From Phycisphaerae bacterium (GTDB lineage Bacteria; Planctomycetota; Phycisphaerae; Sedimentisphaerales; Anaerobacaceae): 64,000 nucleotides of DNA. Position numbers and translations under genes: made by a program. Positions 3,954 to 59,178 of the stretch are shown in pieces. The stretch lies in assembly GCA_030601845.1 (NCBI GenBank), contig JAUWAY010000003.1, positions 1 through 64,000 on the forward strand, in the 5' to 3' direction. A model generated the notes under the pieces. The model saw nothing but the letters and a program-made list of their open reading frames with translations, was not told the DNA's origin and did no database searches. Each line of letters starts with the position of its first letter. Positions within the stretch are counted from its first letter, which is position 1.

Positions 3954-5033
3954 TTAGTCTTGGGTCTTGAGTCTATTATGGTCAACTATCTTCCTGCAAA
4001 ATGTTATATACTCTTGTTCGATTGCCTCAAAATCATCGCCGATATAATGCTCAAACAACTTCGGTCCAACAAGCCGGTTCCACCGGACAGTAAGCAGAAT
4101 ATTTCTATCTGCTGCAATCTTTTTGTCCGCCTCACTGAGCGGCCAGTGCCCCTGCAGGCCGTCGGTCAGCAACTGATGGTAATGAGCCAGCCGACCCCCA
4201 TAGTCGGCTTCATTAAGAAATCGCACCAGCGCATACGACTGGCCGTAAAAGGTTATCAACGCCTCAGTCTGGTTTGTAGCAAGCACCTCTCCGGAGTTCG
4301 TAGCTACCAGTTCTTTCAGCGGTATCATTCTATTCTCCGTCAGCGCTTTTTTCAGGGCACTAAGTCGATACGTATTCCGGCTCGGCTCAAAGTAAAATGA
4401 GCCCCACTCATATCTACTGACCTCAAAGAGCGTTGCGACACCTTCGTCGAGCCAGTTTGGCAGGCGGAACTTAAAATGCCGGCTGTTAAACTGATGCCAC
4501 CCCTCGTGTCCGAGAGCAGAAAAGGTCCGCTCTATACCGATATTGTATGCCACGCAGGCACCATTTAGATAATACGCACCGGCCTTTATTTTACAAAACA
4601 GCGACGCATGTGGACCCGCAAAGGTCTTCGTAAAATCCTCCCACTCGTCCCTATCGGCCAGCAGATAAATCGTAAATTTAGTCGTCGTCTCGATCGGCTC
4701 GGGCAGTTGGTTTTGATAGCCGCGATAAGCCGATTCCAAAAAGGTGGGTATCTCTGAAAGCATCAGCGGCTCCAGCAGTGTTGTATAAATCTCGTAATGC
4801 TCGGTAGTGATAATAAGACCATCACCATATTTGTTTGGCCAGACCTCGATCGATTCGACAGACGGTAGGTTCCGAGCCCGCAAATACTCAATCATACCGC
4901 CAGCAGTATCAATCCGCCGAGCTCCGGTCTCTACCAAAGCCCCGGTTCCAAAACAACCCGCCAGACAAAATATCACGACTATCCAAACTGGCGATGAGCT
5001 TCTTATCACAATTACTTTTCTTATTTTACTCAA
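3954..5033 (-). CDS. Secreted lipoprotein, DUF1570-like zincin metallopeptidase
   Basis: The protein has 359 residues. The N-terminus holds a hydrophobic segment ending in LAGC (C27), a lipobox, so it is probably a lipid-anchored periplasmic protein. The zincin motif HEGWH (H176, E177, H180) is followed by WLDEGVATLFE (E197), where the third zinc ligand or downstream Glu of gluzincins sits. This layout matches the DUF1570 peptidase-like family that is abundant in planctomycetes. The start codon is TTG, within the sequence TTGA that also holds the stop of the AMMECR1 gene, so the two are translationally coupled. The last residues (RLKTQD) are encoded by an AAGACTCAAGA repeat, suggesting the 3' end ran into repeat DNA. 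The substrate is unknown. Confidence 0.75.
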   Translation of the reverse strand: MSKIRKVIVIRSSSPVWIVVIFCLAGCFGTGALVETGARRIDTAGGMIEYLRARNLPSVESIEVWPNKYGDGLIITTEHYEIYTTLLEPLMLSEIPTFLESAYRGYQNQLPEPIETTTKFTIYLLADRDEWEDFTKTFAGPHASLFCKIKAGAYYLNGACVAYNIGIERTFSALGHEGWHQFNSRHFKFRLPNWLDEGVATLFEVSRYEWGSFYFEPSRNTYRLSALKKALTENRMIPLKELVATNSGEVLATNQTEALITFYGQSYALVRFLNEADYGGRLAHYHQLLTDGLQGHWPLSEADKKIAADRNILLTVRWNRLVGPKLFEHYIGDDFEAIEQEYITFCRKIVDHNRLKTQD

Positions 5034-12450: not shown

Positions 12451-12745
12451 ATCGTGACCCGCCTGCCCTCCGAAGCTATGGCGAAAGAGGGTCGCTCGTG
12501 ACCCCTTAATTTTTTCTTCATTTCAAAAATATCCGCAAAAAATTGCCTCCCGCACTGTGCAAGAGGCCTGTCCCCGAATGCCGCTGTCGGGGGCTGTCTA
12601 AAAATCAATCCGACAAACTTTCACACAATCATAGGCATCACCTCGCTTTCTATTGAAAAATCTTTCGCAAACGTCTGATATTTTGTTGCTTTTTAGTCCG
12701 TATTTTGGTATATTGGGGCCTGAAATCAGATCGCATGGAGACAAG
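12451..12745. other. Intergenic stretch with hairpins
   Basis: The stretch contains a GTGACCC...GAGGGTC...GTGACCCC inverted arrangement (12454-12506) and a CCCCGAATGCCGCTGTCGGGG hairpin at about 12572-12592, similar to the hairpin at 187-205. A GAAGCTATGGC word (12472) recurs at 63810. An upstream 31-codon extension of the next gene was rejected in favour of an ATG with GGAG before it. Confidence 0.5.
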
Positions 12746-14980
12746 ATGAAAAAGCGCGTTGGTTTCTTGATAACGGCTCTAGCAGTTGGTTTGCTCACGC
12801 TTGAAACAGCCATGGCCGATGGGCCGCTTGTACAGTGGGAAAAGACCTTCGGTGGAACCGAGACTGACATAGGAAATTCGGTTGAGCAAACCTCTGAGGG
12901 TGGCTTTATCATTGCCGGTTATACTTCCTCCTACGGTGCCGGCAGTTATGATCTTTATCTGATAAAGACCGACAGCTCGGGAAACAGCCAGTGGCAAAAG
13001 ACATTTGGAGGAGGTCATCGTGAACGTGGCGGCCGGGTTAGACAAGCCTCTGACGGAGGCTTTATCGTTGTCGGTAACACTAAGTCCTACGGTGCCGGCG
13101 GCACTGATGTTTATCTGATAAAGACCGACAGCTCGGGAAACAGTCAATGGCAGAAGACCTTCGGGGGAAGCGATTATGACTATGGCACCTCGGTTCAGCA
13201 AACCTCAGATGGTGGCTATATCATTTGCGGCGAAACTTGGTCCTACGGTGCCGGCTTAGCTGATGTATATCTGATTAAGACTGACTACTCAGGCAGCAGC
13301 CAGTGGGAAAAGACCTTCGGAGGGAGTGAAGGTGACTGGGGCTGCTCGGTTCAGCAAACCTCTGATGGTGGTTTTGTCATTCTTGGTTACACTGCTTCTT
13401 ATGGTGCTGGCGGCACTGATGTTTATCTAATAAAGACCGACAGCTCGGGAAACAGTCAATGGCAGAAGACCTTCGGGGGAAGCGATTATGACGAGGGGTA
13501 TTCGGTTCAGCAAATCTCTGACGGGGGCTTTATCATTACTGGCTACACTCGGTCCTACGGTGTGGGGAATGGCGATGTTTATCTGATAAAGACCGACAGC
13601 TCGGGAAACAGTCAATGGCAAAAGACCTTTGGAGGAAACGAACTTGACAGGGGGCAGTGGGTTCAGCAAACTTCTGACGGGGGCTTTATCGTTACTGGCT
13701 ACACTCGGTCCTACGGTGCAGGGAGTGCCGATGTTTATGTAATAAAGACCGACAGCTTGGGAAACAGTCAATGGCAACAGACATTCGGAGGAAGTTATTA
13801 TGACTATGGCGCCTCGGTTCAGCAAATCTCCAACGGAGGCTACATAATTAGCGGACAAACTCGTTCCTATGGCGCGGGTAATCAAGATGTTTATCTGATA
13901 AAACTTGCTCCCGATGAGGGCAGAATTGGTAAGCTCCCGGTGGTTGGCTACTACCCTAACTACGCCACCGACAGGTTGCCGATCGCTAATATTCGCTACG
14001 ATAAATTGACACATATTATATATTTCTCATTGTCGCCTTTGGCTAATGGTGATTTGGACACCAGTAATGTAAACACATCAGACCTTCAAAGCCTGGTCGC
14101 AAATGCTGATGCCAACGATGTCAAAGTACTGATCTGCGTCGGAGGATGGGACCGCTCCGAGCATTTCAGCGCTATGGCCGCTGATCCTAACACCTGCGCC
14201 GCCTTCGTAGAGAATCTAAAGCAGTACTGCCTAAACTATAACTTGCAGGGGGCGGATTTGGATTGGGAGCCGGTTTCGTCGGAACCAGATAAGGATAACT
14301 ATTCGCAGTTGGTCCAGGAGCTGAACAACTCGTTTGACGCGCATGGTTTAATGTTGACAGTGGCGGTGACTCCCGACGGCAACGAGCTCAGGCCGTGGGC
14401 TATTGAGCATGTCGATTGGCTGAACATCATGGCGTATGATAACACGCCACCGCATCACTCTACTTTTGATTTCGCCGTCTCAGCGCTTAACCACTGGGAA
14501 ACTTATGGCGCGCCTCGCGAAAAAGAAGTGCTCGGCGTGCCCTTCTATGGAAAACATGCGAATGGTGATCCTAACACCTATAAATACATTATTGACACCT
14601 ATCACCCGACGCCGGAAGTTGATTTTGTTGACGGCATCGGCTTCAATGGCATTAATACCATCAAGCAAAAAACAGAATATGTCGTCAAGAACGGCTACGG
14701 CGGCATCATGATCTGGGAAATATCGCAAGATACTTTCGACGAGACTTCTCTCTTAACCGCCATCACCGACACTATTCTCTACCTTTCGCCGGCCGACTAC
14801 GACGGAGACGGTGATACTGACTTGGCCGATTTTGCATTTTTCGTGAGCGACTGGCTAAGTTGGTCCTGCAACAGCCAAAATGGTTGGTGTGATCACACGG
14901 ACCTCAACCAGAACGGTCAGGTTGACTTTATGGATTTTGCCTTGATTGCCCAACAATGGCTGGAAGGTACTGCTCCTTAG
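12746..14980 (+). CDS. Secreted GH18-like protein with seven 52-residue repeats and dockerin
   Basis: The protein has 744 residues, with the start at the ATG after GGAG. The order is: signal peptide (1-24, ending TAMA); seven repeats of exactly 52 residues (about 31-394), each W-x-x-TFGG...S-V-x-Q-x-S-x-GG-(F/Y)-I-...-SYGAG...D-x-Y-x-IK; a GH18 chitinase-like domain (about 398-690) with VGYYPNY, LICVGGW, and the active-site strand QGADLDWE; then a type I dockerin (DYDGDGDTDLADFA, DLNQNGQVDFMDFA). In the GH18 motif DxxDxDxE the first Asp is Gln; the last three acidic residues including the catalytic Glu are kept. It is probably extracellular and attached through dockerin-cohesin contacts, acting on beta-1,4-GlcNAc polymers if active. 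Confidence 0.88.
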   Translation: MKKRVGFLITALAVGLLTLETAMADGPLVQWEKTFGGTETDIGNSVEQTSEGGFIIAGYTSSYGAGSYDLYLIKTDSSGNSQWQKTFGGGHRERGGRVRQASDGGFIVVGNTKSYGAGGTDVYLIKTDSSGNSQWQKTFGGSDYDYGTSVQQTSDGGYIICGETWSYGAGLADVYLIKTDYSGSSQWEKTFGGSEGDWGCSVQQTSDGGFVILGYTASYGAGGTDVYLIKTDSSGNSQWQKTFGGSDYDEGYSVQQISDGGFIITGYTRSYGVGNGDVYLIKTDSSGNSQWQKTFGGNELDRGQWVQQTSDGGFIVTGYTRSYGAGSADVYVIKTDSLGNSQWQQTFGGSYYDYGASVQQISNGGYIISGQTRSYGAGNQDVYLIKLAPDEGRIGKLPVVGYYPNYATDRLPIANIRYDKLTHIIYFSLSPLANGDLDTSNVNTSDLQSLVANADANDVKVLICVGGWDRSEHFSAMAADPNTCAAFVENLKQYCLNYNLQGADLDWEPVSSEPDKDNYSQLVQELNNSFDAHGLMLTVAVTPDGNELRPWAIEHVDWLNIMAYDNTPPHHSTFDFAVSALNHWETYGAPREKEVLGVPFYGKHANGDPNTYKYIIDTYHPTPEVDFVDGIGFNGINTIKQKTEYVVKNGYGGIMIWEISQDTFDETSLLTAITDTILYLSPADYDGDGDTDLADFAFFVSDWLSWSCNSQNGWCDHTDLNQNGQVDFMDFALIAQQWLEGTAP
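12836..13927 (+). repeat. Seven tandem 156-base in-frame repeats
   Basis: Seven consecutive 156-base units encode the 52-residue repeats of the GH18-like protein. Units 2, 4 and 5 are almost identical over their last third (the segment for DVYLIKTDSSGNSQ), which indicates recent exchange or duplication between units. The end of unit 7 diverges into the linker. Confidence 0.9.
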
Positions 14981-20591: not shown

Positions 20592-20675
20592 TGCCCGGGA
20601 CTGGAGTCGAACCAGCACGAGCCGAAGCTCACCAGCCCCTCAAGCTGGCGCGTCTGCCTATTCCGCCACCCGGGC
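20592..20675 (-). tRNA. tRNA-Leu (GAG)
   Basis: An 84-base class II tRNA. The acceptor arms GCCCGGG and CCCGGGC pair fully. The anticodon stem CCAGC/GCTGG encloses loop TTGAGGG, giving anticodon GAG (Leu, codon CUC). A long variable arm (GAGC-TTCG-GCTC) and T-loop TTCGACT are present. No CCA is encoded. Confidence 0.95.
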
Positions 20676-20754: not shown

Positions 20755-20839
20755 CTACTTGCCTCGCTCGTTGTTCCAGAGCATAACCTGCAGTCGCTGG
20801 CAGAAAGCAAAGCCGGTGCGTTTGCACATACCAGCTACC
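20755..20839 (-). pseudogene. Displaced queE 3'-end remnant
   Basis: Read on the minus strand this encodes a diverged copy of the last 27 residues of QueE, ending at TAG: MCKRTGFAF...RLQ..LWN..RGK against MCKCTGFAF...RLQ..LWN..RGK in the intact gene; 19 of 27 residues agree. It lies about 390 bases downstream of the intact queE stop, separated by two small membrane-protein genes. It has no start and is not a gene. It is most likely the original queE end, displaced by the inserted cassette. Confidence 0.8.
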
Positions 20840-20933
20840 GTTTTTGATGCTTCATCCGCCAGTGCTCGATCCCAAATAGAACCAGCCCAATTAGCGCTAA
20901 TACCCCAACAATTATTGCAGCTTCTAAAGCCAT
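20835..20933 (-). CDS. 32-residue single-span membrane peptide
   Basis: The peptide begins MALEAAIIVGVLALIGLVLF and ends with a basic tail (EHWRMKHQKR). Its ATG is 4 bases after the stop of the 66-residue gene, and the ribosome site GAAGGGAG overlaps the end of that gene, so the two are coupled. Its stop falls in the first codons of the queE remnant. Size and layout (one helix, basic tail) resemble small membrane-acting peptides such as type I toxins or leader-like subunits; no family is recognised. Confidence 0.55.
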   Translation of the reverse strand: MALEAAIIVGVLALIGLVLFGIEHWRMKHQKR

Positions 20934-20937
20934 ATTA

Positions 20938-21138
20938 TTAACTCCCTTCTTGTTTCTTAGGAGGACAGGCAATTATCCCCAATGTAATTAAGAGAATTAA
21001 AGCCACACCTAAAGAGATCCTTAAAACAATCGAGAATTTGACGAAGAATTCTGAAGCAAGCGTTGCTGCAAAGAGAATACTCGATAGATTAAGGCATATC
21101 TTAAAGACTCCTTCTCGTCCTCCTTCAGTGAATAGCAT
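20938..21138 (-). CDS. 66-residue two-span membrane protein
   Basis: The start is at ATG 21138, with AAGGAG eight bases upstream. Two hydrophobic helices (about 14-32 and 37-60) are connected by a short charged turn, and the end is CPPKKQEGS. A strong promoter (TTGACA-17-TAAAAT) lies 26 bases before the start codon. No family is recognised. With the 32-residue gene it forms a two-gene cassette inserted behind queE. Confidence 0.65.
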   Translation of the reverse strand: MLFTEGGREGVFKICLNLSSILFAATLASEFFVKFSIVLRISLGVALILLITLGIIACPPKKQEGS

Positions 21139-21163
21139 AAGCAATCTCCTTATTTACACAAAG

Positions 21164-21192
21164 ATTTTACCCTATGCGGTGAATACTGTCAA
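21164..21192 (-). promoter_or_regulatory. Strong promoter of the small membrane-protein cassette
   Basis: On the minus strand: TTGACA (21192-21187), 17 bases, TAAAAT (21169-21164). It lies between the queE stop and the 66-residue gene, so the cassette has its own promoter. Confidence 0.8.
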
Positions 21193-21226
21193 ACGCAATT
21201 TTTGCTCATCATCGGGTTGTGCGAAG

Positions 21227-21907
21227 CTACTTTCCTCTTGCGCTATTCCAGAGGAGAGTTTGCAGGCGCGGCGAAAATGCGAAGCCGGTGCATTTGCACA
21301 TCTCGGCTACCATTGGGGATTTGGCTAAAAGCTCAGCCCTTGTAACTGCCTGCGGCATCAGCATTACCTTTTCGGAATCAACGTTTCCAATCTCTTCTAA
21401 CGTCTGCTGTATTTCCGGCAAATCATCCTGCGAATCTACTACAAACTTTAGTTGATATTTATAATTATCAATTAGCTCTCGCAAAACGGCTGTATCCAAC
21501 CTCAAATCCTCATGAATCTTAGCAAGTTCAGGCTCGGCCGGCGTAGAGTTACTTAACTTTGGGCTAATACTCATCAAATCACAGACTAAACCCTGTATAA
21601 ATGCAATACCTGCAGTTTCAATAGTTATATGTTTTCCAGACTCTTTTAGCATTTGTGCTAATTTCGGCAATTGCGGATTTATCATTGGCTCGCCGCCGGT
21701 TATTACTACGAATTTACTCTGGTATTGTTGAACGGTCTGGACTATTTTGTCTATACTGTAATCGGCTCCTGCCATTTCGTCCCAGGCGTATTTGGTATCG
21801 CACCACTTACATCGCAGGGGACAACCTGCCAGGCGCACAAATACACTGGGCACACCGGCCAAAAATCCCTCGCCCTGCAGGGAATAAAATATCTCATTTA
21901 TTACCAT
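21227..21907 (-). CDS. queE: 7-carboxy-7-deazaguanine synthase
   Basis: A radical SAM enzyme of about 226 residues that converts carboxy-tetrahydropterin to 7-carboxy-7-deazaguanine in queuosine synthesis. It opens INEIFYSLQGEG and carries the iron-sulphur cluster motif CPLRCKWCDT (Cx3Cx2C), then GGEP and the C-terminal GFAFSPRLQ motif. The start is at ATG 21907; an in-frame TTG lies two codons earlier. It follows queC by about 55 bases on the same strand. Its 3' end is unusual: a second, diverged copy of the last 27 codons lies downstream beyond a small cassette. Confidence 0.92.
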   Translation of the reverse strand: MVINEIFYSLQGEGFLAGVPSVFVRLAGCPLRCKWCDTKYAWDEMAGADYSIDKIVQTVQQYQSKFVVITGGEPMINPQLPKLAQMLKESGKHITIETAGIAFIQGLVCDLMSISPKLSNSTPAEPELAKIHEDLRLDTAVLRELIDNYKYQLKFVVDSQDDLPEIQQTLEEIGNVDSEKVMLMPQAVTRAELLAKSPMVAEMCKCTGFAFSPRLQTLLWNSARGK

Positions 21908-43569: not shown

Positions 43570-44613
43570 TCACCACTCACCGCCGTCTTCGTCCTGCTCT
43601 CCTATGAAGTCCTTACGGACTGTTTCTCTCGGATGAGCGTTTTCATAAACCTCTTTTAGTCTTCTCGTGCTAAGATGCGTGTAAATCTGAGTCGTCGATA
43701 GCGACTGATGCCCGAGTAACTCCTGAACACTCCTTAAATCCGCACCATTATTCAACATATGCGTTGCGAAGCTATGGCGCAACGTATGTGGGCTGATTGT
43801 CGGGTCCAGCCCAGCCATCTTAAGATACTTATCCATCTTACGACGAACGCTCCTGGTGCTCAGACGCCGACCGTGCTTATTCACGAATAAAACTTTCGAG
43901 TCAAAATTACCGTTACTTTGAGCTCTTTTGTTTCGGTACTCCATATAATGTTGAATAACCTGTAAAGCTGACGAGCCTATGGGGGCAATTCTCTCTTTTT
44001 TGCCTTTGCCTCTGACATGTACGACCTCACCTAAGAAGTCTATATCATCCATATTCAACGCCACAAGCTCACTAACTCTAATACCGGTGCTGTAAAGTGT
44101 CTCCAGAATAGCTCTGTCCCTTGCACCAAGCCAGTTATCCATTGGTGGTGTTTCGAGTAATCTCTTAACTTCTTCGTATTCGAGGAACCGTGGCAGCTTC
44201 TTTTCTTGTTTTGGTGTTCTAACTGCCATAACCGGATTGGAGACAAGCCGGCCTCTTTTAACAAGAAATTTATAAAAGCTTCGCAATGTAGCCAGCTTAC
44301 GAGCCACCGTTGCTTTGGAATATTGTCTCTCATTTAGAAAGGCAAGATATGCTCTAACAGCATCAGTCTGGGCTGAAAGAAGCAACTGGTCACCCCTAAG
44401 CAGCGGCTGCGCAGCCACAGCCGTAGTCGAACCTCCCCCATGCTGAGCTTCCAAAATCGCTTCACCGCTCGGTCCAACACCCTCAGAACGCCCAACTAAA
44501 AATTCCTCAAATTGGCTCAGATCTGCACCATAACACTTGGCCGTATGCCCTGAGAATCGCTTCTCAAATTTCAAGTAACTTAAGAACTCTTGGATAACAA
44601 CACTGTCTTTCAT
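43570..44613 (-). CDS. xerC: Tyrosine recombinase XerC/XerD with N-terminal insert
   Basis: The protein has 347 residues, against about 300 for Xer. Catalytic residues are all visible: Arg in STGIRVSELV, Lys in GKGKKERIAP, HTLRHSFATHML, and GHQSLSTTQIYTHL with the nucleophile Tyr. It resolves chromosome dimers at dif with a partner. Between residues about 37 and 80 the SAM-like core-binding domain holds an extra Gly/Ser/Ala-rich stretch (EGVGPSGEAILEAQHGGGST...), encoded around a GGCTGCGCAGCC palindrome; it looks like inserted repeat DNA. XerC and XerD cannot be told apart here. Confidence 0.9.
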   Translation of the reverse strand: MKDSVVIQEFLSYLKFEKRFSGHTAKCYGADLSQFEEFLVGRSEGVGPSGEAILEAQHGGGSTTAVAAQPLLRGDQLLLSAQTDAVRAYLAFLNERQYSKATVARKLATLRSFYKFLVKRGRLVSNPVMAVRTPKQEKKLPRFLEYEEVKRLLETPPMDNWLGARDRAILETLYSTGIRVSELVALNMDDIDFLGEVVHVRGKGKKERIAPIGSSALQVIQHYMEYRNKRAQSNGNFDSKVLFVNKHGRRLSTRSVRRKMDKYLKMAGLDPTISPHTLRHSFATHMLNNGADLRSVQELLGHQSLSTTQIYTHLSTRRLKEVYENAHPRETVRKDFIGEQDEDGGEW

Positions 44614-57394: not shown

Positions 57395-57596
57395 TTCTGT
57401 CTCCTTATAATATGCACTTCAAATTTCACAACCAACAAAGGGCCGTATTGTCTCGCATAACTATCAAAAAATCAACCTTTCCCCGCATCTTTTTTGTTCT
57501 TACTTTTGCCCTTAACTATGCCCGCAGGTGTTTATAACGCTTGTCTACTCGCGTTTTTGCAGAGAACTGACTAATTTTGTCGAAGAAATAACTAAT

Positions 57597-58379
57597 ATGA
57601 GCAAGAAATGGTCCGTTATCTTGACGCTTTGCGCGTGCCTGACCATCCTGGCCCTTGCCGGCTGCTACCAGCCGGTAAGCTACCCGGTGATAATTTCCCA
57701 GCCACGCCCGTTGCCATCTGCACTTCTGACCAGCTACCGCATTGTCGGTAAATCGGTCAGGCAGCAGCCAATCCTCAGCATCATCCTCGGCCAGGGCGAA
57801 GATGTGATTTTCATCCTGGCAACCATCCATGGCAACGAACCAGCCGGAACCACGCTACTTCTACGCCTCGTAAAATATCTGCAACAAAACCCAAAATGGC
57901 TAAAAACAAGAACCGTTGTCCTTCTGCCAACAGCAAATCCAGACGGTATGGCCACGGGCAACCGCTACAACGCCCACGGCGTCGACCTCAACCGAAATTT
58001 CGCAACAGCCAACCGCCTTAACAACCAACGCTCCGGAACCACCCCACTCTCCGAGCCCGAGGCCCGCATAATCGACCAGCTCATCCGGCAATATGCTCCC
58101 GACCGCATTGTCAGCATTCACCAGCCGCTTGCCTGTATCGACTACGATGGCCCAGCTCAGGCACTGGCCAGCCGACTGGCCCAATATTGCGACCTGCCTG
58201 TCAAAAAGCTCGGCGCAAAGCCCGGTTCACTCGGCTCGTATGCCGGCCTCACCCTCCACATCCCTACCATAACCATTGAACTGCCCCCCGGTGCCGACCG
58301 ACTCGACCGCCAATCCCTCTGGGATAAATACGGCCCCCCTCTCATCGCCGCAGTTATATACCCAAACAGACCCGAATAA
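57597..58379 (+). CDS. Lipoprotein M14 carboxypeptidase (MpaA-like)
   Basis: The protein has 260 residues from the ATG at 57597. The signal ends LALAGCYQP, a lipobox, so it is a periplasmic lipoprotein. Zinc ligands and catalytic residues of M14 are visible: HGNEPAG (HxxE), NPDGMATGNRYNAHGVDLNRNF (in two parts: NPDG and GVDLNRNF), SIHQP (His) and TITIELPPG (Glu). It resembles murein tripeptide amidase MpaA. The last 25 codons recur in diverged form at 59101-59178, beyond a small cassette. Confidence 0.88.
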   Translation: MSKKWSVILTLCACLTILALAGCYQPVSYPVIISQPRPLPSALLTSYRIVGKSVRQQPILSIILGQGEDVIFILATIHGNEPAGTTLLLRLVKYLQQNPKWLKTRTVVLLPTANPDGMATGNRYNAHGVDLNRNFATANRLNNQRSGTTPLSEPEARIIDQLIRQYAPDRIVSIHQPLACIDYDGPAQALASRLAQYCDLPVKKLGAKPGSLGSYAGLTLHIPTITIELPPGADRLDRQSLWDKYGPPLIAAVIYPNRPE

Positions 58380-58506: not shown

Positions 58507-58782
58507 ATGAAGCCAATTGTATTTTCACAACATGCTTTAGATCAGCTTGGTGACCGAGGAGCATCAGAACAAGAGGTAAAACTGGCAATACAAGGTGGAG
58601 AAGAGGTTCCTGCTAAAAAAGGCCGGAGAGCATTTAGAAAAAATTTCCCTTTTGGTTCTAAATGGAAAGGTAAGCATTACGAGCTAAAGCAGGTAATGCC
58701 CATTGTCGTAGAAGATCCTGAAGAAACAGTTGTAGTTACGGTGTTTGTATTTTATTTCGGAGGACAGACTCGTGAAGATTAA
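58507..58782 (+). CDS. DUF4258 protein, toxin-like
   Basis: The protein has 91 residues. It opens IVFSQHALDQLGDRGASEQE, the DUF4258 pattern (a His, then R-x-I/A-S, similar to RelE/BrnT-type small folds), and ends with a beta hairpin TVVVTVFVFYFG. It overlaps the DUF2283 gene by 11 bases. DUF4258 and DUF2283 genes often pair and are regarded as toxin-antitoxin-like; activity is not shown here. Confidence 0.75.
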   Translation: MKPIVFSQHALDQLGDRGASEQEVKLAIQGGEEVPAKKGRRAFRKNFPFGSKWKGKHYELKQVMPIVVEDPEETVVVTVFVFYFGGQTRED

Positions 58783-58987
58783 ATATGACCCTAAGGTTGA
58801 TGCCGCCTATATCTCCTTCAAGAAAGGGCCTGTCGAACTAACCACTATGCGAATTACCGAAGACATTTCTGTCGATTTCGGACCCGGAGAGGACATCGTT
58901 GGTATAGAGGTTTTAGACGCATCTAAACACCTGGAACTCAGTCGCAAACATCCAAAGATTGAACTGGAAAACCTGGTGTCCGGTTAA
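58772..58987 (+). CDS. DUF2283 protein, antitoxin-like partner
   Basis: The protein has 71 residues with a GTG start; GGAGG lies inside the end of the DUF4258 gene. The pattern KIKYDPKVDAAYISFKKG then DISVDFGPGEDIVGIEVLDA is the full DUF2283 domain. With the DUF4258 gene it forms a coupled pair in a cassette behind the peptidase gene. Confidence 0.85.
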   Translation: MKIKYDPKVDAAYISFKKGPVELTTMRITEDISVDFGPGEDIVGIEVLDASKHLELSRKHPKIELENLVSG

Positions 58988-59100
58988 GAAAAAGCTCTAA
59001 GGGTGTTTTAGCGACAAATAAATCGATTTTACGTCCCAGTTAACTTTCGCAGTTTTTAGGCGGCTAAACTCCATGAAATATAATTATAAACGCCCATCTG

Positions 59101-59178
59101 CTTGATAGCCAGTCCCTCTGGCAAAAGTACGGCCCCGCACTTATCGCCGCCGTCGCATACCCCGAAAGAATCAATTAA
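59101..59178 (+). pseudogene. Displaced M14 peptidase 3'-end remnant
   Basis: This encodes LDSQSLWQKYGPALIAAVAY then PERIN and a TAA stop; the intact gene at 58302-58379 encodes LDRQSLWDKYGPPLIAAVIY then PNRPE. 18 of 25 residues agree. It has no start and lies 722 bases after the intact stop. Its stop overlaps that of the convergent NIPSNAP gene, as an original neighbour would, so it is probably the ancestral end of the peptidase gene. Confidence 0.85.

Follow-up and report, generated by a model that had tools for sequence, protein, structure and literature searches.

The stretch analyzed here, called the window, comprises 64,000 nucleotides (nt) from a Phycisphaerae genome (assembly GCA_030601845.1, contig JAUWAY010000003.1, positions 1 to 64,000) and carries a small two-gene cassette behind the tRNA-modification gene queE. 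The stop codon of the intact gene is followed by a promoter-like site, a gene for a 66-amino-acid (aa) protein (p66), a gene for a 32-aa protein (p32) and a second, displaced copy of the queE 3' end, beyond which lies a tRNA-Leu gene (Table). An earlier, sequence-only reading of this DNA had described these parts in this order, and every element proved correct. It had also called the two small open reading frames (ORFs) coupled; p32 does directly follow p66, but with a gap of 4 nt and no overlap. The two queE ends form an 88-nt direct repeat with 74% identity and a spacing of 472 bp. No inverted repeats lie at the ends of this locus or of a second locus in the window, at an M14 peptidase gene. 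The Rfam scan matched the tRNA alone.

The QueE protein shares 82-84% identity with its nearest orthologues, and its scores against the QueE models fall below the curated QueE cut-offs. At the promoter-like site, for which 0.9 equally good sites are expected per shuffled region, TTTGACAGTATTCACCG is kept in all three genomes that carry the cassette. Both small genes are under purifying selection. For p66 this is seen between the window's genome and a second carrier, G094 (P = 0.019), and against the divergent allele of the third carrier, G022 (P < 5e-5); for p32, comparisons between genomes gave P = 0.002-0.023. Neither protein matched a family in Pfam, NCBIfam, PHROGs or PADLOC beyond chance level, and the pair has no homology to a known toxin or antitoxin in these collections. 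In G022 (L072 about 4001..4199, plus strand), a single base is inserted behind codon 13 of the 66-aa gene, and an in-frame ATG just downstream of it could start a shorter protein.

Table. Features of the queE and M14 peptidase loci and of tail duplications at other genes. Positions are those of the window unless a contig or genome is named.
Feature	Position	Strand	Basis or content
queE (7-carboxy-7-deazaguanine synthase), intact, target gene	21227..21907	minus	radical-SAM Pfam and QueE NCBIfam models
Last 27 queE codons and stop, foreign type (imported), ending NSARGK	21227..21310	minus	N[ST]A[RK]G[RK] end specific to carriers
Cassette proper, queE stop to p32 stop, 392 nt	20835..21226	minus	three-carrier alignment
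Promoter-like site TTGACA-17-TAAAAT	21164..21192	minus	11/12 matches
p66, 66 aa, two predicted membrane spans	20938..21138	minus	ORF, hydropathy, selection test
p32, 32 aa, one predicted span, basic C-terminus	20835..20933	minus	ORF, hydropathy, selection test
Displaced queE 3' end, native type, with own stop after MCKRTGFAFCQRLQVMLWNNERGK	20755..20838	minus	repeat of queE tail; downstream same as in cassette-free G020
tRNA-Leu(GAG)	20592..20675	minus	downstream neighbor of queE in many cassette-free relatives
M14 zinc carboxypeptidase gene, intact	57528..58379	plus	PF00246, E=1.6e-19
M14 cargo gene 1, DUF4258 protein (toxin-like)	58507..58782	plus	PF14076, E=2.5e-5, just under cut-off
M14 cargo gene 2, DUF2283 protein (antitoxin-like), overlaps gene 1	58772..58987	plus	PF10049, E=7.7e-14
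Displaced 3' end of M14 peptidase gene	59092..59178	plus	88-nt direct repeat, 72% identical, spacing 799
ruvB	contig C26, L122 8394..9440	minus	displaced end +962 nt; two small membrane proteins, no Pfam family
murD	contig C26, L120 6681..8225	plus	displaced end +851; nucleotidyltransferase PF01909 (MNT) and HEPN PF05168
asnS	contig C6		displaced end +1022; PIG-L deacetylase PF02585
metK	contig C5, L151 1708..2976	minus	displaced end +731; MazE PF04014 and PemK/MazF PF02452 on opposite strand
Membrane-protein gene of G011	G011, L173 902..2100	plus	FkbM-like methyltransferase insert (named by eye), then copy of last 29 codons

Carriers of the cassette and the origin of the two queE ends

Among 89 genomes of the family, the 66-aa protein was found, besides the window's own genome (G000; 1.86 Mb, 75% complete), only in G022 and G094, two Phycisphaerae metagenome-assembled genomes that belong to one genus, different from that of the window. 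In both, the cassette stands behind queE as in the window, with 390 and 391 nt compared with 392, and is followed by a displaced queE end. The sequence-only reading had also raised the prospect of copies of the two small genes behind other genes. None was found as far as the searches reached: the 66/32 pair was seen behind no gene other than queE and did not turn up in 392 genomes of the phylum, 161 genomes of the order, viral contigs, phages and plasmids. A 23-bp cassette end apparently shared with G006 was rejected, as the match falls within coding sequence and is due to chance.

The duplication of the queE tail is beyond chance. Of the 75 family genomes in which the tail was found, 71 have one copy; two copies occur only in the three carriers and, with the extra copy broken, in G029. 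This G029 fragment of the queE 3' end (L034 4200..4830, plus strand) lies beside tRNA-Leu and is preceded by an apparent IS1380-type transposase start, with the intact queE on another contig. It was rejected as a cassette event, a broken old locus with transposase-like sequence being a different event.

Cassette-free relatives have a single queE end, which is of the displaced type and is followed by the matching downstream sequence. In G093, a member of the genus of G022, queE terminates in RLQVLLWNNEKGT and its stop, after which comes the same sequence as behind the displaced end of G022. Similarly, the queE end of the cassette-free G020 and the stretch up to tRNA-Leu match the window sequence from the displaced end onward. 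The intact queE ends in N[ST]A[RK]G[RK] in each of the three carriers, whereas 0 of 38 cassette-free tails do so. A carrier-only ending on the intact gene, together with a displaced end of the native type, indicates that the intact gene holds an imported end. The tail of the intact queE is thus the foreign one, and the displaced end is native.

These observations bear out the sequence-only reading, which had proposed an insertion at the queE 3' end that restores the gene: G020 and G093, both cassette-free, end in the remnant type and continue with the same downstream sequence. It had held that a duplicated end in cassette-free relatives, or a remnant closer to another full-length queE of this genome, would speak for a simple tandem duplication. 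No such relative exists among those compared, except for the broken G029 locus, and no second full-length queE was found in the 75% complete G000.

Tail duplications at other genes

The arrangement recurs elsewhere in the genome. The scan for tail duplications accepted same-strand repeats at most 3 kb apart with homology restricted to the end of a gene; it covered 767 kb of G000 (41%). A first pass within the window compared the last residues of every long ORF with nearby DNA. Background scores were obtained from mismatched pairs of ORF and downstream sequence, with a 99th percentile of 44; the few above this value came from repeats or overlapping stretches. Matches to pilin-like heads, dockerin, PEP-CTERM and zinc ribbon were dropped as repeats, as were full-length tandem paralogues, insertion sequence (IS) copies and antisense ORFs. 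A long ORF of the window (12653..14980) contains internal tandem repeats, which showed up as self-matches in antisense.

Six tail-only duplications were found in G000, with scores of 64-134: that of queE and those of the M14 peptidase gene, ruvB, murD, asnS and metK. Four of them lie on the window's 114-kb contig, where ruvB and murD are at about 112.3 and 70.7 kb. The repeats measure 88 nt at queE and M14 and about 42-150 nt at the other loci; the repeated stretches span 16-45 codons, and the ruvB repeat begins with 33 identical bp. The 1.6 Mb scanned in comparison genomes (800 kb of G011, 400 kb each of G015 and G057) yielded one comparable tail-only duplication, in G011. Entry at the 3' end of a conserved gene with restoration of that gene, as proposed from the window alone, fits at least five more genes in G000. 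The mirror scan for duplicated gene starts gave no convincing real gene in G000, which indicates that the 3' bias is not a product of the scan alone. No recombinase gene or integrase remnant was seen in any of the six units, and comparison of the six repeated stretches by eye gave no shared motif. The bias of the cargo at the other genes toward toxin-antitoxin pairs suggests, by analogy, that the 66/32 pair may be a self-maintaining (addiction-like) module.

A displaced tail that was a dead duplicate of the resident one should differ from it at all three codon positions alike. For the six loci together, the differences between intact and displaced tails stand at 21:13:52 by codon position (P < 5e-5), with 31 nonsynonymous codons compared with 54.5 expected (P < 5e-5), an effect size to be taken as an upper estimate since a scan by protein similarity favors the synonymous pattern. 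Without queE, the counts are 17:7:40 (p = 1.5e-6), and at single loci the test is not significant for murD and metK. The third-position bias indicates that the two tails accumulated their differences in separate lineages, each as a functional gene end, and were then brought together by transfer. Local tandem duplication of a gene end, with later decay and with the small genes originating or being inserted between the copies, would produce the direct orientation that we observe. Such a history is very improbable in light of the pooled third-position bias, the match of the displaced rather than the intact queE copy to native relatives, and the fact that no relative has an empty duplication. For the queE end, the native and foreign tail types together with the third-position bias led us to reject it.

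Breakpoints and the route of entry

Taken together, the data make it probable that the cassette enters, with a copy of a queE tail, by recombination in the recipient's queE tail, and that this is one case of a class present in G000. The comparisons demonstrate the structure, the empty sites and the foreign tail at queE, as well as the recurrence and the divergence of the tails as coding sequence. The cassette, consisting of two membrane-protein genes under selection and their own promoter, would travel with a copy of the last ~27 queE codons. This copy would recombine with the tail of the recipient's queE, and the crossover would fuse the body of the recipient's gene with the imported tail, keeping QueE whole and leaving the recipient's own tail stranded behind the cassette. 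The new genes would gain a place behind a conserved gene, with the imported gene tail serving as the address. Accessory units of one or two genes, often toxin-antitoxin pairs, would have entered likewise at the M14 peptidase gene, ruvB, murD, asnS and metK. As to the route, we infer either a small circle, integrated by a single (Campbell-type) crossover, or transformation, with homologous replacement by carrier DNA.

Comparison of the occupied and empty sites offers a greater level of detail. In the block that spans the p32 stop and the left portion of the displaced end, G022 and G094 agree at 50 of 50 nt; in the right part, 10 of 39 nt differ, mostly synonymously, which looks as though each right part had served as a working queE end until recently. 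The synonymous bias in this part of the remnant has P = 0.013 and 0.05 in two pairs and 0.22 in the third. At sites that tell the host (G093) from the donor type (G094), the displaced end of G022 has a donor:host ratio of 8:0 in codons 1-12 and of 1:4 in codons 13-25 (p = 0.007), and in its intact queE end the change from host to donor type lies near codons 11-12. Both junctions fall in the same ~10-codon stretch, as expected of one crossover with a circular molecule, or of its reversal. The occupied and empty pair points to recombination inside the last ~15 queE codons.

In a tree of the queE body, the carriers do not form a clade, and G022 joins the empty G093 (96/99); forcing the carriers together gave p-AU 0.0018 (approximately unbiased test). 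The rpoB tree places the empty G093 with the carrier G094 (100/100); G000 is not joined to them, its position being unresolved, and rpoB of G022 is missing. Six rpoB genes (G000, G013, G034, G092, G094 and G096) exceed those of the rest of the family by ~200 aa in their open frame, and a gap near model positions 234-290 of the family match may mark an insertion domain or other insert. The second half of p66 is ~95% identical between G000 and G094 and about half identical to the other allele in G022. This mosaic indicates that cassette segments moved between the genera g1 and g23.

A single old insertion at queE that passed vertically through g1 and g23, with G093 losing it when its two tails recombined, appears unlikely, if still conceivable. 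It retains the tail-replacing insertion and adds only an excision. Such a history agrees with the junction lying at the same place in all three carriers and with a divergence of cassette and intact tail between genera about as large as that of the queE body. It conflicts with the carriers not being a clade, with the movement of p66 between genera, with 50 identical nt adjoining cargo that is 20-29% divergent, and with a remnant whose right part changes mostly synonymously, unlike a long-dead copy. We prefer repeated movement of the cassette over a single old entry.

Several points weigh against entry by tail recombination. Patches of the G022 queE body are also donor-like, which indicates that ordinary homologous exchange is mixed in, and a gain in G022 and a loss in G093 leave the same pattern. 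The known material for the queE breakpoints consists of three carriers and one close empty relative, so that few sites decide. No circular form of the unit was observed. The evidence from empty sites does not extend to M14, ruvB and murD. G011 has asnS followed by the PIG-L gene without a displaced tail; this order speaks for tail recombination as the one expected of a donor, but it could instead be ancestral. Finally, the scan compares protein similarity, which favors synonymous differences to some degree.

With no recombinase in the unit, the homologous gene tail most likely guides entry. The lack of a recombinase in every unit, together with the lack of a shared motif by eye, favors homology over a dedicated integrase. 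Site-specific integration would require minimal or decayed elements resembling cis-mobilizable elements (CIMEs), with an attP that includes a gene 3' end and a tyrosine recombinase that works in trans or has been lost in the meantime. The topology is as in e14 at icd (PMC6379469), the repeats are short and placed at the 3' end, the ruvB repeat opens with its identical stretch, and tyrosine recombinases are present in the carriers. Nevertheless, six unrelated targets that on inspection share no core motif would need several specificities, and an integrase remnant occurs in 0 of 6 units. The near-constant cassette (390-392 nt in the carriers), with its genes under selection, is unlike decay. The sole recombinase of the window, at 43570..44613, is Xer-like with counterparts in cassette-free genomes, and its reading as an integron integrase was rejected on these grounds. 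No related complete element with an integrase was found in the collections searched. We regard site-specific integration as quite unlikely. The sequence-only reading had spoken of an element or allelic cassette; no autonomous element was found, neither an integrase nor terminal inverted repeats being seen.

Integron cassettes are similar in cargo type and size to the tail-duplication units, which carry toxin-antitoxin pairs, small membrane proteins and, in G011, an FkbM methyltransferase. Insertion of such cassettes at secondary sites is nonetheless hardly credible as an explanation, as every unit comes with a copy of the tail of the gene that it targets, a feature not known from attC-mediated insertion, and inverted repeats are absent from the ends of both window loci. 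An attC-like reading of the cassette start was dropped; its GTCCAAC fits two carriers and not the window copy.

In its most general form, entry by tail recombination would be a homology-guided mode of acquisition, in which short, mostly addiction-type units use the 3' end of a conserved gene as address, enter any relative at that gene through recombination in its tail without disabling it, need no recombinase of their own and leave a scar. This extension we put forward tentatively, as a serious possibility that falls short of our expectation.

Relation to known systems

How chromosomal toxin-antitoxin pairs and tiny accessory genes spread without mobility genes is a long-standing question. Insertion by swapping of gene tails seems to be a route that accessory genes take repeatedly to become established beside conserved genes without breaking them. 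The displaced tail is a scar simple enough to be sought by a scan of any genome, and it shows which copy is foreign. In the 41% of G000 covered, it reveals at least six events. It also implies that important enzymes, namely MurD, RuvB, MetK, AsnRS and QueE, have their C-termini exchanged between species, these ends hitchhiking with the accessory genes. If the gene tail alone is the address, harmless insertion beside essential genes would be explained without an integrase, and all such events in a genome could be listed by their displaced-tail scars.

The closest precedent is the insertion of restriction-modification units with long target duplication (ILTD), the original description of which is reportedly that of Nobusato et al. 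in 2000. According to three reports, these units have variable target repeats of ~100 bp and no linked mobile element (PMC3874152, PMC3031569, PMC1643837). The present units share with them an addiction-type content without mobility genes, direct target repeats in the range of 100 bp (88 nt at queE and M14) and a single empty copy in relatives, the last seen at queE in G093 and G020 and in the prevalence of single tails. The targets here are gene 3' ends, mostly of housekeeping genes. The two repeats are not copies of one resident sequence: the tails show coding-type divergence over the six loci, and the intact queE tail is of foreign type. No restriction-modification genes were seen in the units; the cargo consists of MNT/HEPN, MazEF, DUF4258/DUF2283, PIG-L and small membrane pairs.

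Prophage e14 at icd of E. coli, with its displaced icd end, is described in a report that cites Hill et al. 1989 (PMC6379469). As at queE, the element gives a conserved gene a slightly different 3' end, and the original end is left at the far side. However, e14 is a 15-kb prophage with one target, whereas the queE unit has 0.4 kb and no integrase, and six targets are found in the genome. CIMEs are bounded by attL and attR and have no integration or transfer genes (PMC5704250). The units are similarly bounded by attL/attR-like repeats of a gene 3' end and lack such genes, and at queE the repeats lie at the gene 3' end with the gene restored. They differ in having no known related integrative and conjugative or integrative and mobilizable element (ICE/IME), in their several unrelated targets, and in a tiny, near-constant size with genes that are selected and not decayed. 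A literature search retrieved no account of such a combination, although absence is not thereby proven. Relative to these systems, what appears to be new is that one of the two repeats is a foreign homologue, that six genes are affected in one genome, and that the cargo consists of toxin-antitoxin or small membrane pairs.
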